Part shown: positions 16,393-22,210 of the stretch, piece by piece | Layout of the letters: each line of letters opens with the position of its first letter | How positions within the stretch are numbered: position 1 is the first letter of the stretch | Source of the DNA: Betaproteobacteria bacterium | Lineage (GTDB): Bacteria > Bdellovibrionota_B > Oligoflexia > Silvanigrellales > Silvanigrellaceae | Direction: 5' to 3' | Length of the DNA: 64,000 nt | NCBI GenBank assembly: GCA_016868315.1 | Contig: VGHE01000001.1 | Span: forward strand, 310,001-374,000 | Position numbers and translations under genes: made by a program | The notes under the pieces: generated by a model | The model's input: only the letters and a program-made list of their open reading frames with translations | Databases searched by the model: none | Told to the model about the DNA's origin: nothing

Positions 16393-16854
16393 TTAACGGG
16401 GTGGCTCACGCAAAATCCGGAAGCCCTCAAGCAGCCACGTGCGCACTTCATCGTTGAAGCAAGCAAAGCCTTCAGGCCCAATGGCCTCAGCCATATTGCC
16501 CAAAACCGTGAGCAGATTGGGGTGCATGATGGGGCTTGCTGTGTCTTCACTCAGGGGCTGTCGCGCCATGCAGCTGAGCTGACCCACAGCATAGATGTGA
16601 TGAATGTTGTTGATGAGCTTGGGGCCCAGAATCTTTTGCATCAGAAGTGGCTCTTTTGAGAGCTCCTGCAGAGCATCCACAATACCGGCCGCAGCCGTTT
16701 GAGCTCCAGGGAGGATGTCTTTCATGTAAGACTCAAGCCTCTCAGGAAAGTCAAAATCGTCATTTTCAAGCTTCCATATTTGATGATAATGCAGATAAAA
16801 TGCACCCAAATTATAGCCAAGCTTGAGTGCCGCAGATGATTGTTGTGCGTTCAT
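16393..16854 (-). CDS. Unknown protein, probably all-helical
   Basis: Not recognised; 153 aa, soluble, without signal or membrane segment. The composition and periodicity suggest a helical protein (YNLGAFYLHYHQIWKLE, then LLMQKILGPKLINNIHHIY). AAGGAG lies 6 nt before the ATG, a strong initiation signal. It follows the next upstream minus-strand gene by 57 bp and is probably cotranscribed with it. Both are divergent from the DUF2201 gene, so the three may form one functional group. Confidence 0.55.
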   Translation of the reverse strand: MNAQQSSAALKLGYNLGAFYLHYHQIWKLENDDFDFPERLESYMKDILPGAQTAAAGIVDALQELSKEPLLMQKILGPKLINNIHHIYAVGQLSCMARQPLSEDTASPIMHPNLLTVLGNMAEAIGPEGFACFNDEVRTWLLEGFRILREPPR

Positions 16855-16911
16855 GGCAAACTCCTTCCACTGTTAAATTGAAAGTTGCGTTCCGAGTTTT
16901 TCTCGACCCTT

Positions 16912-17466
16912 CTAGGTCGACTTCTTGCGCGACAGTCTGTGTCGGAGTTTGTTGAGGCGTGTGAGCAAAACGGGATCTCTGACCTGCGTGAATGCGTCTG
17001 ATTTATCCAGATCTCCCAAAAATCGTTTACCTTGAAAATTCCACTGCAAAACCTGAATCCAGAAGACAATAAATTCACTGGTGAGGTCTGGCCGGCTGCG
17101 CAACAGTTCGAAGAACTCCGGCTCGCGGATGGCTGTTTCCATGCCGTCGTATTGGAAATGTTTCTCAACCCCCAGTTGTTCGTCCATGTGGATTTGCAGA
17201 CGTGTCAGAACGCTGATGAGAATCTCTTCTCTTGCTGGGCTGCCGCTGCACAATTCCTTGAAGGTGTCGGAATGTGTCCACACCCAGTGCGCCAGTGTGG
17301 ATGCAATTGTTTGACAACCTGTCGCAAACGTTTCCGCGTCTTGTTCTCGTTCCAAAGTCTCAATGACAGGGGTGAGAAATAAATCATACCTTTCCAACTC
17401 AGACTTTGCCTTTTCAGCGCTCTGCCAGGCGATTTCAAAACAACTTTTTTGTACTTCTTTGTGCAA
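16912..17466 (-). CDS. Unknown protein upstream of the helical protein
   Basis: Not recognised; about 184 aa, soluble, rich in charged helices (for example SAEKAKSELERYD) with a basic C-terminus. The start is uncertain: TTG 17466 has no ribosome-binding site, and the same frame stays protein-like for 20 more codons upstream (AELDLAVDEIFLCAVARTVL) until a TGA at 17527-17529, with no ATG or GTG in between. The N-terminus may therefore be truncated or may use a rare codon. It lies divergent from the DUF2201 gene. Confidence 0.5.
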   Translation of the reverse strand: MHKEVQKSCFEIAWQSAEKAKSELERYDLFLTPVIETLEREQDAETFATGCQTIASTLAHWVWTHSDTFKELCSGSPAREEILISVLTRLQIHMDEQLGVEKHFQYDGMETAIREPEFFELLRSRPDLTSEFIVFWIQVLQWNFQGKRFLGDLDKSDAFTQVRDPVLLTRLNKLRHRLSRKKST

Positions 17467-17590
17467 TACGGTTCTGGCAACAGCACACAGAAATATCTCA
17501 TCTACCGCAAGGTCAAGCTCAGCTTGTCAGCAGAAAAACAAACACAGCTTGACAGAGCCATTGATGTGGGTTGAACGGGAGGGGGTTAAA

Positions 17591-18355
17591 ATGCAGCGCA
17601 CAGAGAAAACCAATGAGCACAGTCCTCTCTTCCTGCAAACACAAAGAGAGAAAATAGAACATGCACTGAGACGCATTCAGGTGCATCATCCGTTTTATTA
17701 TTTCATGTGCGCTGACCTTGAAATGATTGTGGATGAACGATTTGAAACGATGGCCACCGATGGCATCTCACTTTATTACAACCCACGCTTTGTCGACAGG
17801 CTCAAAGCGAATGAAGTGGAGGCAGTTCTGCTCCATGAATTCATGCACGTCATTCTTTTGCATCCGTGGCTCAGCGAAAAAGCTATTTTAAAAGGATACA
17901 ATCGCGACATTTGGACACTCGCCATGGAGTTCGTTGCCAATCGTGAAGTGCGGCACATCAGCGAACAGCGGGTGCGAGCGCGCGGTCAACGTGTCAGTGA
18001 GGTGAACCTGCCCGGTCATTCGCTGGGGGTTGCAGAGCTTTTGGAAATTCAAAAGACCAACATACAAAAAAGAGAAATCTACTTTTTCGACACGCGGCTT
18101 GATGCCATGGATATTGAGGATGTGTATCACTACCTCAGAGTCAGAATTGTGCTGAACGAATCCGAAGCCAACAGCGGAGAGGAAAATTCACAAGTTAAAA
18201 AGGCGCAAGGCAAAGTGAAGAGCCTTGATGGTTGGGCTGTCTCGCGGGATCGCATTGAAGACCTCATTGAAAAACATTTGCGCGGCAAAGAGGATGCAGC
18301 GCGACGCGTGCGCGAGAAATTCATGCTCGCACCCACGATTTTTGGTGCAGAATGA
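17591..18355 (+). CDS. DUF2201 N-terminal metallopeptidase part, ending at an in-frame TGA
   Basis: First part of a DUF2201-type gene. The zincin motif is LLHEFMHVILLH (HExxH) at about residues 79-90, with the conserved WTLAMEFVANREV segment downstream. GGGAGGGGG precedes ATG 17591 by 5 nt. Translation would stop at TGA 18353-18355 after FGAE, but the same frame continues with family-like sequence: the KIHGSL segment, then LTTPELDWRKYLANVAGRL. Full-length relatives fuse this domain to a VWA-like domain, which here continues in frame at 18539. This is either the 5' half of a pseudogene or a gene read through UGA. Relatives are often linked to a MoxR ATPase, but the one here is 31 kb away. Confidence 0.75.
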   Translation: MQRTEKTNEHSPLFLQTQREKIEHALRRIQVHHPFYYFMCADLEMIVDERFETMATDGISLYYNPRFVDRLKANEVEAVLLHEFMHVILLHPWLSEKAILKGYNRDIWTLAMEFVANREVRHISEQRVRARGQRVSEVNLPGHSLGVAELLEIQKTNIQKREIYFFDTRLDAMDIEDVYHYLRVRIVLNESEANSGEENSQVKKAQGKVKSLDGWAVSRDRIEDLIEKHLRGKEDAARRVREKFMLAPTIFGAE

Positions 18356-18538
18356 GCCAAGATTCACGGCTCGCTTTCGGAAAATCTCAAGCTTGCATAC
18401 AACCAGCTCACCACACCAGAACTCGACTGGCGAAAGTACCTTGCCAACGTTGCGGGTCGACTCGCCGACACTGACGAGTTTTGATTCGACGCGCCCAATC
18501 TGCGTCATCCTCTGGCCCGTGAGGTTGTTCAAGCCGGA

Positions 18539-18943
18539 TTGCGGAGTGAAAAACCCGATGGAATTTTCATTGCCATCGACACCTCAGGTTCGGTGGACTG
18601 TAGCATGCTCACTCAATTCTTAAGCGAGTGCGCAGGAATTCTGCGCTACCTTGAAGAGGTCAGTGTCATGGCCGTAGACTGCAAGGCTGCTCCGATACAA
18701 ACTCTTCGTCCGTCTTCTCTTAAAAATATTAAAGTCACCGGCGGCGGAGGAACCGATTTCCGCGAGGTGTTCAAGAGCCTGCACAAAGAGCGGATTATGC
18801 CTGACCTCCTTGTGTATTTCACAGATGGTTACGGCCCATTTCCCGAGACGCCGCCGCGCTTTCCAGTCCTGTGGGTTCTCACTCGGCATTCGGGTGAAGT
18901 GCCCGCAGGATATGGCCGTGTGGTGTATTTGAACCGAGTTTGA
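18539..18943 (+). pseudogene. DUF2201 C-terminal VWA-like domain, separated by two in-frame TGAs
   Basis: VWA-like half of the same DUF2201 protein, in the same frame as the gene starting at 17591; only TGA 18353-18355 and TGA 18482-18484 interrupt it. The MIDAS residues are all kept: DTSGS, GGGGTDF and YFTDG, followed by the family's PVLWVL strand. The first possible separate start is TTG 18539, without a ribosome-binding site. It would lose only the segment before the VWA strand, so independent translation is conceivable but unlikely. The lack of frameshifts and the intact metal site argue against long-standing decay. Confidence 0.65.
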
Positions 18944-18977: not shown

Positions 18978-19610
18978 TCAAGCTGTTTGCTGGATGGGAT
19001 CCAACTCCAAAAAGCCGCGCCTGGGATTCTCTGTGGGACTTGCAGATGGGGTTTGAGGCCGACGATGTTTCTCTATGAGCTCTGCATCTCTACAGGACCC
19101 CGTGTTGCCAAGTTCGTATCCGCTTTTGAATGCATGGAGCACAGTTTCAAGGTGATTCAGATCTTCCGGTACAAAGTCTCTGAGGATAAGATGACCTAAA
19201 ATATGGCATGAAACTGAGTGCCCGCCGTTGCAATTTTCAAGCAACAAATCCAGCGATTTCTCAGTGTCTTTTTCACCTCCGTAGCCATTCGAAAACATTT
19301 GTGAAAGTACAAGGCAGGCCTCAGCAAGTTTGAGGCCACAAGCCATTTCGATATACATTCTGCTCCTCGTCGGTCCCGATTTTTTGTCACCGAGGGTGCT
19401 CAAGTAAGTTGACATGGCGTGGCATGACTCCGCTTCGCCATTGCGGCACTGCTTGTCGAGGGCATCGAGTGCGCTGTTGGTTTCAGGTGTCACTCTGGCC
19501 TCAGCAATTGACTCAGGTTGTGCGGCCTGTGTGGGGTAGAAGTGAACACCAAGAACCCAGATGAGGTTCACAAAAAATGCAGTCAAAAGCGCATAGAATA
19601 TGGTCTGCAT
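18978..19610 (-). CDS. Sel1-like repeat protein with Hcp-type disulfide pairs, membrane-anchored
   Basis: About 210 aa, with one N-terminal membrane helix or uncleaved signal (IFYALLTAFFVNLIWVLG) and then three Sel1/TPR-like helix pairs. Each pair contains a C-x7-C couple (CRNGEAESC, CGLKLAEAC, CNGGHSVSC), the disulfide pattern of Helicobacter cysteine-rich (Hcp) proteins, implying a periplasmic location. ATG 19610 is preferred over GTG 19619 because AGGAG lies 8 nt before it. Sel1 proteins act as interaction scaffolds; the partner is unknown. It is convergent with the broken DUF2201 gene. Confidence 0.75.
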   Translation of the reverse strand: MQTIFYALLTAFFVNLIWVLGVHFYPTQAAQPESIAEARVTPETNSALDALDKQCRNGEAESCHAMSTYLSTLGDKKSGPTRSRMYIEMACGLKLAEACLVLSQMFSNGYGGEKDTEKSLDLLLENCNGGHSVSCHILGHLILRDFVPEDLNHLETVLHAFKSGYELGNTGSCRDAELIEKHRRPQTPSASPTENPRRGFLELDPIQQTA

Positions 19611-19720
19611 TGCGTTCACTCCTGTGGTTGTGGGGTAAAGAGAATCGGTGTTATTTAATGTATCGTCGGCTTACACGTCATGTTGTGGCACGTTTTCGGC
19701 CACAAGGCAGAAAATTTATA

Positions 19721-19793: not shown

Positions 19794-20579
19794 TCACGCA
19801 GCGGGAAAAGCCTGCTGAAAATAATCCGCAAGTATTTCCTCGGCGAGCTTCCTCGATGAGAAGGCATTTTTGCGATTGAGTCGTTCAAGTGAATATTCAA
19901 TCGCGCTTGGAAGGTGCGTGTCAAAGAACTTTGTGATGAATGGCTCTTCAGCAACAATCTTATCGAGAAAAGTGCCGCCATCGACTTTCAGTATTTTTTC
20001 GTTCCTTTGTTCTTTTGTTTGCGTGATATTATTTGGTGGCGTGAAAACTGTTTCGTAACGTCGATTTCCAGAGCAAATCATTTCGACGTAGTATGTTGTG
20101 TATTCAGCATGTGCAGGGTCTTCAAGGAATGCTCTGAGGTTGCCATATATTGCCTTTTTGTCGCTGCCTTTCGTGGTGTTGTGCTTGTTTTTGATTTCTG
20201 CAGCGATTTTCTTTTTACGATTGACAACATCAAGCAGTTGTCCTGTTCCAAGATCCTCCCAATCTTCAAACGATCCAATAACGATTTGGTGTAGGTCCCC
20301 TATCGTATTTTGGAGAGTCTTTTGCCGCTGTCGGATAAGTTCGTTTTTTTTCCAGTCCTGCACTGAACAACCAAGAATGGAACATTCAATCAGGGCAGAG
20401 AAGGGATCGATCTTGTTTTTTTTAATGGTCTGCGCTGAGTCTGCTTTTGCAATGGATTCAAGAAGTGGCTTCATGATTTTGCAATCGAAGTCTTGGTAGA
20501 ACTTATTCTCAATGAACTTCGCTATACCAGCGCCGCCTCTTGTAGAGAGATATTCCACTCCGCATCCATGAGGGCACAT
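19794..20579 (-). CDS. Type II restriction endonuclease, Eco47II/Sau96I family
   Basis: PD-(D/E)XK-type restriction enzyme of 261 aa. Family blocks are visible in order: KIDPFSALIECSILG, LIRQRQKTLQNTIGDLHQ, and the catalytic AEIKNKHNT (E-x-K) preceded by an Asp in QLLDVVN. Enzymes of this family cut GGWCC or GGNCC; which applies here is not predictable. A C5-cytosine methyltransferase is divergently encoded 320 bp away, as expected for a type II system. The ATG has no clear ribosome-binding site and the Cys-rich first 15 residues look atypical, so the true start may differ. Local sequence is more AT-rich than its neighbours, suggesting acquisition by transfer. Confidence 0.85.
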   Translation of the reverse strand: MCPHGCGVEYLSTRGGAGIAKFIENKFYQDFDCKIMKPLLESIAKADSAQTIKKNKIDPFSALIECSILGCSVQDWKKNELIRQRQKTLQNTIGDLHQIVIGSFEDWEDLGTGQLLDVVNRKKKIAAEIKNKHNTTKGSDKKAIYGNLRAFLEDPAHAEYTTYYVEMICSGNRRYETVFTPPNNITQTKEQRNEKILKVDGGTFLDKIVAEEPFITKFFDTHLPSAIEYSLERLNRKNAFSSRKLAEEILADYFQQAFPAA

Positions 20580-20899
20580 GTCGGCATTTGTTAAGCGTTC
20601 TTGAGGATGTCCGCGGTGTGTGACTTCTTACGGTGTCGTTTTCTGAGGTGCGTGCGAATAGCTGTAATTTATGTTTTCTTTCTGTTTTTAGGAGGCTCAG
20701 TGCTCTGACCTCCTCACTCAGCTGGGTACACCACTCAAAGTTCTAATCCATCAAATAGGCCATTTTAAACCGATATTTGCGTTGGTTTGGCCTGAGTCCG
20801 TGTCCCTTGCTGCTCAGCTTGTCTGGCCTGCGAGGTTCTGGTATCCGAGAGGTCGAATCTCAAACTCAAGAAGTCGAACCGGTTTCCCTGGGGGGTGGT
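20580..20899. promoter_or_regulatory. Divergent restriction-modification control region
   Basis: 320 bp between the restriction enzyme (minus) and methyltransferase (plus), with no convincing gene. At 20691-20713 a strong hairpin or operator-like inverted repeat is seen: GGAGG-c-TCAG, loop TGCT, CTGA-CCTCC. No promoter boxes are clear. No separate C-protein gene is present. The methyltransferase carries its own N-terminal HTH, which could bind here, but that is inference. Confidence 0.45.
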
Positions 20900-22210
20900 A
20901 TGGATTTGAAATCCACGATGTCAGCAGAACTTGTTGCTGATATCACATCGGTTTCGAAGGCAACGCTGCGTAAGTGGGAAAAGGCGGGAAAGCTCACCCC
21001 CATCCAGAACCGCGCAACGGGACGTGTCGAATATCAGCTCGAGCAGTTGTTGCAGTTCGAGGCGTTTCGCGGTTTGCAGTCTTCAAATTGGAATGAAGAA
21101 GAAAGAGTTGTTCCGAGCAGAAAGTACACCTCCATTGAATTGTTCGCAGGAGCGGGCGGTTTGGCATTGGGTTTGGAAAAGGCTGGATTTGAGACTCTAG
21201 CTCTCAACGAGTTCGACAAGGACGCCTGCGGAACGCTGCGTGCGAATCGCAGTGGGTGGAATGTTATTGAAGGAGATATTCGAAACGTCGACTTCAAAGC
21301 GTATTCTGGCATTGATTTTTTATCTGGTGGATTTCCGTGCCAGGCATTTTCATATGCAGGCAATCAGCTCGGGTTTGAAGACACCCGCGGTACGATGTTC
21401 TTTGAATTTGCACGTGCCATCCGCGAAACCTCTCCGCGCGTCTTCATGGCCGAAAATGTTCGTGGACTTTCTGTTCATGATGGTGGCCGAACGATGGCAA
21501 CCATCAAGCGAGTCATTTCTGACTTGGGCTACACACTGATCGAGCCCACAGTGTTGAAAGCAATCGTCTACAAGGTACCGCAGAAGCGTGAACGGCTATT
21601 TCTCATTGGTGTGCGCAACGATTTGGCCAAGTCGTTTCAGTTTTCTTGGCCATCACCGTGTCCGCAGGTGTTCGTGCTGCGTGATGCTCTCAAGGCCGGA
21701 GCGTTGTTCAAAGAAGATGTTCCAAAGTCTGAGGGGCAGAAATATCCCAAGAGAAAAAAAGAGATCATGGCGATGGTACCGCAAGGCGGATATTGGCGCG
21801 ATTTGCCCGATGAAATTCAGAGGGAATACATGAAGGCCAGTTATTTTCTGGGCGGCGGCAAAACTGGAATGGCACGGCGGCTCTCTTGGGATGAACCCAG
21901 TCTCACGCTGACTTGCGCTCCCGCTCAGAATCAAACTGAGCGGTGTCACCCTGAAGAAACCCGGCCTCTGACTGTGCGTGAATACGCGCGTATCCAGACT
22001 TTTCCCGACGATTGGGTTTTCTCGGGCAAGTTGGGCAGTCAATACAAACAAATTGGCAATGCAGTTCCTGTGAACCTCGCGTATGCCGTTGGGCGCCGCG
22101 TTGTTGCTCTGCTCAACAGCATGGAAGTCAATGCGGGCCGTTCAGCCACCAAAAACCATCGTAAGATTGCCGCTGCGCGAGAGAATATGCGCTCTATCTT
22201 CGAATTTTGA
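20900..22210 (+). CDS. DNA (cytosine-5) methyltransferase with N-terminal MerR-like HTH
   Basis: C5-cytosine methyltransferase protecting host DNA from the divergent restriction enzyme. Motif I is FAGAGGLALG, motif IV GGFPCQAFS with the catalytic Cys, motif VI ENVRGL, motif VIII QKRERLFLIG, and motif X QYKQIGNAVP near the C-terminus. A target-recognition stretch lies between VIII and IX. Residues 8-50 (ITSVSKATLRKWEKAGKLTP) form a MerR-type winged helix, like the N-terminal regulatory helices of some type II methylases that repress their own promoter. ATG 20900 is chosen for its upstream GGGGGTGG; the longer frame begins with non-conserved sequence. Confidence 0.9.
   Translation: MDLKSTMSAELVADITSVSKATLRKWEKAGKLTPIQNRATGRVEYQLEQLLQFEAFRGLQSSNWNEEERVVPSRKYTSIELFAGAGGLALGLEKAGFETLALNEFDKDACGTLRANRSGWNVIEGDIRNVDFKAYSGIDFLSGGFPCQAFSYAGNQLGFEDTRGTMFFEFARAIRETSPRVFMAENVRGLSVHDGGRTMATIKRVISDLGYTLIEPTVLKAIVYKVPQKRERLFLIGVRNDLAKSFQFSWPSPCPQVFVLRDALKAGALFKEDVPKSEGQKYPKRKKEIMAMVPQGGYWRDLPDEIQREYMKASYFLGGGKTGMARRLSWDEPSLTLTCAPAQNQTERCHPEETRPLTVREYARIQTFPDDWVFSGKLGSQYKQIGNAVPVNLAYAVGRRVVALLNSMEVNAGRSATKNHRKIAAARENMRSIFEF

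Follow-up and report, generated by a model that had tools for sequence, protein, structure and literature searches.

A DUF2201 metallopeptidase-VWA gene with two in-frame UGA codons is very probably a recent pseudogene left behind when its ATPase partner was deleted

A reading frame that is broken twice by TGA, and by no frameshift, raises the question of whether the gene has been inactivated or whether its UGA codons are still decoded. The gene considered here encodes a DUF2201 protein and lies within a window of 64,000 nucleotides, by which we mean the whole stretch of DNA that was analysed (Table 1). An earlier note on this DNA had described a single frame with two internal TGA codons, HExxH and MIDAS motifs and the two-domain layout of DUF2201, and both translation and Pfam searches confirm this description. 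Specifically, one frame runs from the ATG at 17591 to a TGA at 18941-18943 with codons 255 and 298 as its only internal stops, compared with 5 to 26 stops in each of the other five frames of the same interval. The translation carries the motifs HEFMH (HExxH) and DTSGS (MIDAS). Sequence across the stops is family-like, as had also been proposed, with both Pfam domains over their cut-offs: DUF2201_N at residues 19-306 (73.4 bits against a cut-off of 23.2), which spans the first and the second stop, and the VWA-like domain at residues 326-447 (85.1 bits against 26.4). The frame is not the intact one of the DUF2201 family, since TGA occupies two codons that are sense codons in homologues and in the nearest orthologue.

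That orthologue is found in only one of 55 related genomes, an uncultured Silvanigrella MAG of the same genus (G001, hereafter the sister genome). Its protein is 74% identical over 437 aligned residues, and the gene has no stops. No DUF2201 protein match exists in the second same-genus genome or in 53 more distant genomes, and a Pfam profile search of the related genomes adds one weaker VWA match, in G055. The corresponding codons of the sister gene are TGG and CGC, and both TGA codons can be reached by single transitions, from TGG and from CGA (which, like CGC, encodes Arg). Transitions are the commonest substitution class, and the ancestral second codon was presumably CGA. The second TGA had been placed where a small polar residue precedes an aromatic one. 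This is borne out in distant homologues, in which the residue before the aromatic position is Ser in 19 and Glu in 12 of about 40. The nearest orthologue has Arg at this position.

The further proposal that nothing else is wrong with this gene does not hold. About 180 bases upstream, a deletion of approximately 1.2 kb has eliminated most of the partner ATPase gene and cut short a neighbour on the opposite strand. Window positions 16405-17409 align with L003:4892-5896 of the sister genome (76%), and positions 17409-18941 align with L003:7096-8619 (73%). These flanking blocks are collinear, the sequence between them in the sister genome (L003 5896-7096) is missing from the window, and local alignment places the junction near 17409. 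Lost with this stretch were roughly the first 307 codons for the ATPase and the 5' part of the opposite-strand gene. The sister genome retains an intact ATPase gene (364 amino acids, L003:6168-7262) that ends just before the DUF2201 gene, whereas the window has no intact ATPase gene adjoining its DUF2201 gene. Matches to this ATPase in the window's genome are confined to the remnant of residues 308-364 and one distantly related ATPase of MoxR type that is encoded elsewhere in the window. Because the gene is whole in the sister genome and a fragment here, the event was a deletion in the window lineage and not an insertion in that of the sister genome. The truncated opposite-strand gene, which has no Pfam family match, now has an open reading frame that begins within antisense ATPase sequence, and it may be dead too.

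Table 1. Features of the DUF2201 locus, in window coordinates; positions in L003 refer to the sister genome (G001)
Feature	Position	Strand	Remarks
DUF2201 gene (putative metallopeptidase and VWA-like), very probably a pseudogene	17591..18943	+	450 codons, interrupted by TGA twice
First internal TGA, codon 255	18353..18355	+	TGG (Trp) in G001 orthologue; reached from TGG by a single G-to-A transition
Second internal TGA, codon 298	18482..18484	+	CGC (Arg) in G001 orthologue; one C-to-T transition from CGA
Deletion junction, approximate	17405..17415		Left homology ends about L003:5896, right begins about L003:7096
3' remnant of AAA ATPase gene	17401..17571	+	Residues 308-364 of 364, 82% identical to G001; frame differs from that of DUF2201
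Opposite-strand gene, 5' end lost in the same deletion	16912..17466	-	198 aa in G001; homology begins after about 23-34 residues
Next opposite-strand gene	16393..16854	-	Collinear with G001 L003:4856-5341; shared synteny on the left

The significance of the missing ATPase becomes apparent when the distant relatives are considered. An ATPase homologue accompanies the DUF2201 gene, at a distance of up to about 3 kb, in 33 of 40 distant DUF2201 homologue loci, and the ATPase-DUF2201 pair is therefore a conserved module. It has been described that MoxR-type ATPases and their VWA protein partners act as chaperone and co-chaperone (PMC7159879), and by analogy, loss of the ATPase would be predicted to leave a DUF2201 protein without function. 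The pair in the sister genome resembles these MoxR-vWA couples in that an AAA ATPase gene adjoins a gene for a VWA-domain protein, but by the tests made it is none of the ternary systems of that paper (PMC7159879). Furthermore, the sister ATPase matches PF00004 over the cut-off and AAA_5 only below it, and hence 'MoxR-like' would be a tentative label for this protein. Neither protein of the pair is matched by a model in PADLOC or NCBIfam, and our literature search found DUF2201 in four papers only, mentioned once or twice in each.

We conclude that the DUF2201 gene is very probably a recently inactivated pseudogene that has been orphaned by the loss of its ATPase partner. An intact orthologue in a close relative is accompanied by disabling changes here, and the locus is an ordinary instance of an already known kind, the bacterial pseudogene. 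Recent nonsense changes were among the alternatives listed in the earlier note, and the sense codons of the sister genome support them. The ancestor would have carried a two-gene module, with the AAA ATPase gene followed by the DUF2201 metallopeptidase-VWA gene, as the sister genome still does. In the window lineage a single deletion then took most of the ATPase gene and the start of its divergent neighbour, together with the intergenic region that is the presumed site of transcription initiation for the module. A DUF2201 protein lacking its ATPase would most likely be functionless, and the gene would afterwards have acquired its two stops along with several substitutions at residues that are otherwise invariant. 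The deletion probably preceded the stops, and the truncated product is probably non-functional. Promoter scans gave no match between 17400 and 17590, although scans of this type prove little.

Some of the changes downstream of the stops are consistent with a pseudogene. Three substitutions in the VWA domain, P392E, F414Y and E416P, occur in the window copy alone, at columns that are invariant in 22 of 22 dereplicated homologues and in the sister gene, and there are no departures unique to the sister gene at columns invariant in the 22 homologues. The excess over the sister gene is small (3 to 0, p = 0.125; 4 to 0, p = 0.06). When relaxation of the rate was tested against distant outgroups, the outcome was mixed, with ratios of window-unique to sister-unique changes of 11:4, 8:12, 11:11 and 16:8, and we have therefore judged relaxed selection by the small sample of invariant columns only. 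Within the limits of that sample, the VWA changes point to relaxed selection.

It is important to note that several observations count against a pseudogene. The small excess at conserved sites is one of them, as is the completeness of the genome that was searched (94.8%). The dN/dS ratio relative to the sister gene is low, at 0.087 overall and 0.063 after the second stop, although dS is near saturation and these ratios are rough. Such values indicate constraint over most of the divergence between the two genes and hence a recent inactivation, which would also explain the lack of a frameshift. Given the codons of this gene and transition biases of 1 to 6, the probability that two of two nonsense changes are TGA is about 0.04-0.08, and two nonsense changes of the same stop type have a probability of about 0.34-0.36. 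The double TGA is thus mildly unusual by chance, and no special mechanism is needed to account for it.

The rival readings differ in what they ask of the two UGA codons. Selenocysteine insertion, some other programmed recoding or a genome-wide reassignment of UGA would account for a frame interrupted by TGA alone, and UGA recoding was the possibility that the earlier note had raised. We consider these explanations to be hardly conceivable given the damage just outside the gene, the sense codons in the sister genome and the absence of recoding machinery among the matches found. The window's genome comprises 3.24 Mb in 27 contigs and is incomplete to the extent noted above, and gene absences from it are not absolute. 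Selenocysteine and suppressor-tRNA readings were rejected by genome searches for selA, tRNA-Sec and a UCA anticodon. The selA gene was not found by a search that was positive in an E. coli control; no genome match to tRNA-Sec exceeded the gathering score, and the eight matches retrieved from below that score are located in the usual tRNAs for Ser, Leu, Arg, Tyr and His; and none of the 42 tRNAs of the genome detected by ARAGORN has the anticodon UCA. Cys occurs at neither TGA site in about 40 homologues, nor in the sister gene with its Trp and Arg. Genome-wide reassignment was rejected on the basis of release factor 2 and of stop codon usage in the window. The prfB gene for this factor is present and intact (458 bits, over the cut-off; G000:C3:159222-160244; L098, about position 1508) and retains the programmed +1 frameshift site GGAGGTCACTTTGAC, where GGAGG and CTT precede the UGA that closes frame 0 (...IRRSL-UGA) and the +1 frame goes on DTPLRRKRMLEIDAESQ. 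This autoregulatory site would make no sense unless UGA were a working stop. Moreover, TGA outnumbers the other stops in the window, terminating 26 of 48 long non-overlapping open reading frames in a mechanically derived set that was not curated for genes.

Readthrough makes fewer demands on the genome. A near-cognate tRNA, for example tRNA-Trp with anticodon CCA, might decode the UGA codons at low efficiency, such that a little full-length protein is made and used. The Trp codon of the sister gene at the first site and the low overall dN/dS would fit this possibility, and Belinky et al. (PMC7918605) consider in-frame stops without other degradation to be poor markers of pseudogenes, with TGA being leaky. 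However, those authors count multiple frameshifts and long deletions as other degradation, and a long deletion has removed the partner ATPase, which by the spirit of their criterion puts this locus on the pseudogene side. Losses would also multiply where two leaky stops follow one another, the sister gene has Arg rather than Trp at the second site, and invariant residues downstream of the stops have changed. We regard functional readthrough as quite improbable, and it is very improbable that readthrough of both codons is so frequent that an ATPase-free DUF2201 protein is produced and selected for. Assembly artefacts can create internal stops (Cooley and Wright, PMC11017572), and one or both TGA codons might be errors of sequencing or assembly. 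This is highly improbable, since two substitution errors in one gene beside an independently visible deletion of its partner would be an unlikely coincidence, and the contig is 555 kb in length. Gene fission, wherein an N-terminal peptidase piece (to codon 254) and a C-terminal VWA piece function as separate proteins, receives some encouragement from the open reading frames at 17363-18355, which spans most of DUF2201_N, and 18539-18943, which spans the VWA domain. Yet the first stop falls inside DUF2201_N, the 42 intervening codons, which still resemble the family, would serve no purpose, no Shine-Dalgarno-like sequence is seen before the GTG and TTG codons that follow the second stop, and the changed invariant residues reside in the VWA piece. 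Working proteins from a split gene are accordingly close to inconceivable here.

Among known systems, the window gene resembles other DUF2201 proteins (Pfam PF13203 and PF09967) in having both domains in the same order and an ATPase remnant directly upstream, and it is distinguished from them by its two stops, the deletion of the ATPase and the three altered VWA residues. Likewise, it shares with bacterial pseudogenes that carry nonsense changes (PMC7918605, PMC11017572) the in-frame stops, the intact sister orthologue and a neighbouring deletion. It differs in having TGA at both stops and, as yet, no frameshift, which is compatible with recent inactivation. A single stop type and the lack of a frameshift had suggested recoding, and the sister genome together with 200 bases of upstream sequence revealed an orphaned gene, which should serve as a caution for similar cases. 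The locus clearly exemplifies how a module of two linked genes decays after half of it is lost, and this would fit a dependence of the DUF2201 protein on its ATPase.

The right flank of the locus has a history of its own. Synteny with the sister genome stops directly after the DUF2201 gene (window 18941 onward), where the sister genome has a NERD-UvrD helicase gene (L003:8653-10389; PADLOC and Pfam matches), whereas the window has a small gene followed by a restriction-modification pair. With different genes in this position in the two genomes, the flank evidently turns over quickly. The small gene (18978-19619, minus strand), for which Pfam gives no explanatory match, encodes a protein that is 31% identical in pairwise comparison (E 5e-24) to that of L003:1909-2586 (minus strand), a gene about 5 kb to the left of the sister DUF2201 gene. 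Both contain repeats reminiscent of Sel1, and synteny does not account for the pair. The type II restriction-modification genes that adjoin the pseudogene (19794-22210) encode an Eco47II-type endonuclease on the minus strand (PF09553, 124 bits) and, on the plus strand, a C5 cytosine methyltransferase (PF00145, 280 bits). In addition, residues 51-103 of the methyltransferase match MerR-type HTH models, by a narrow margin over the cut-off.
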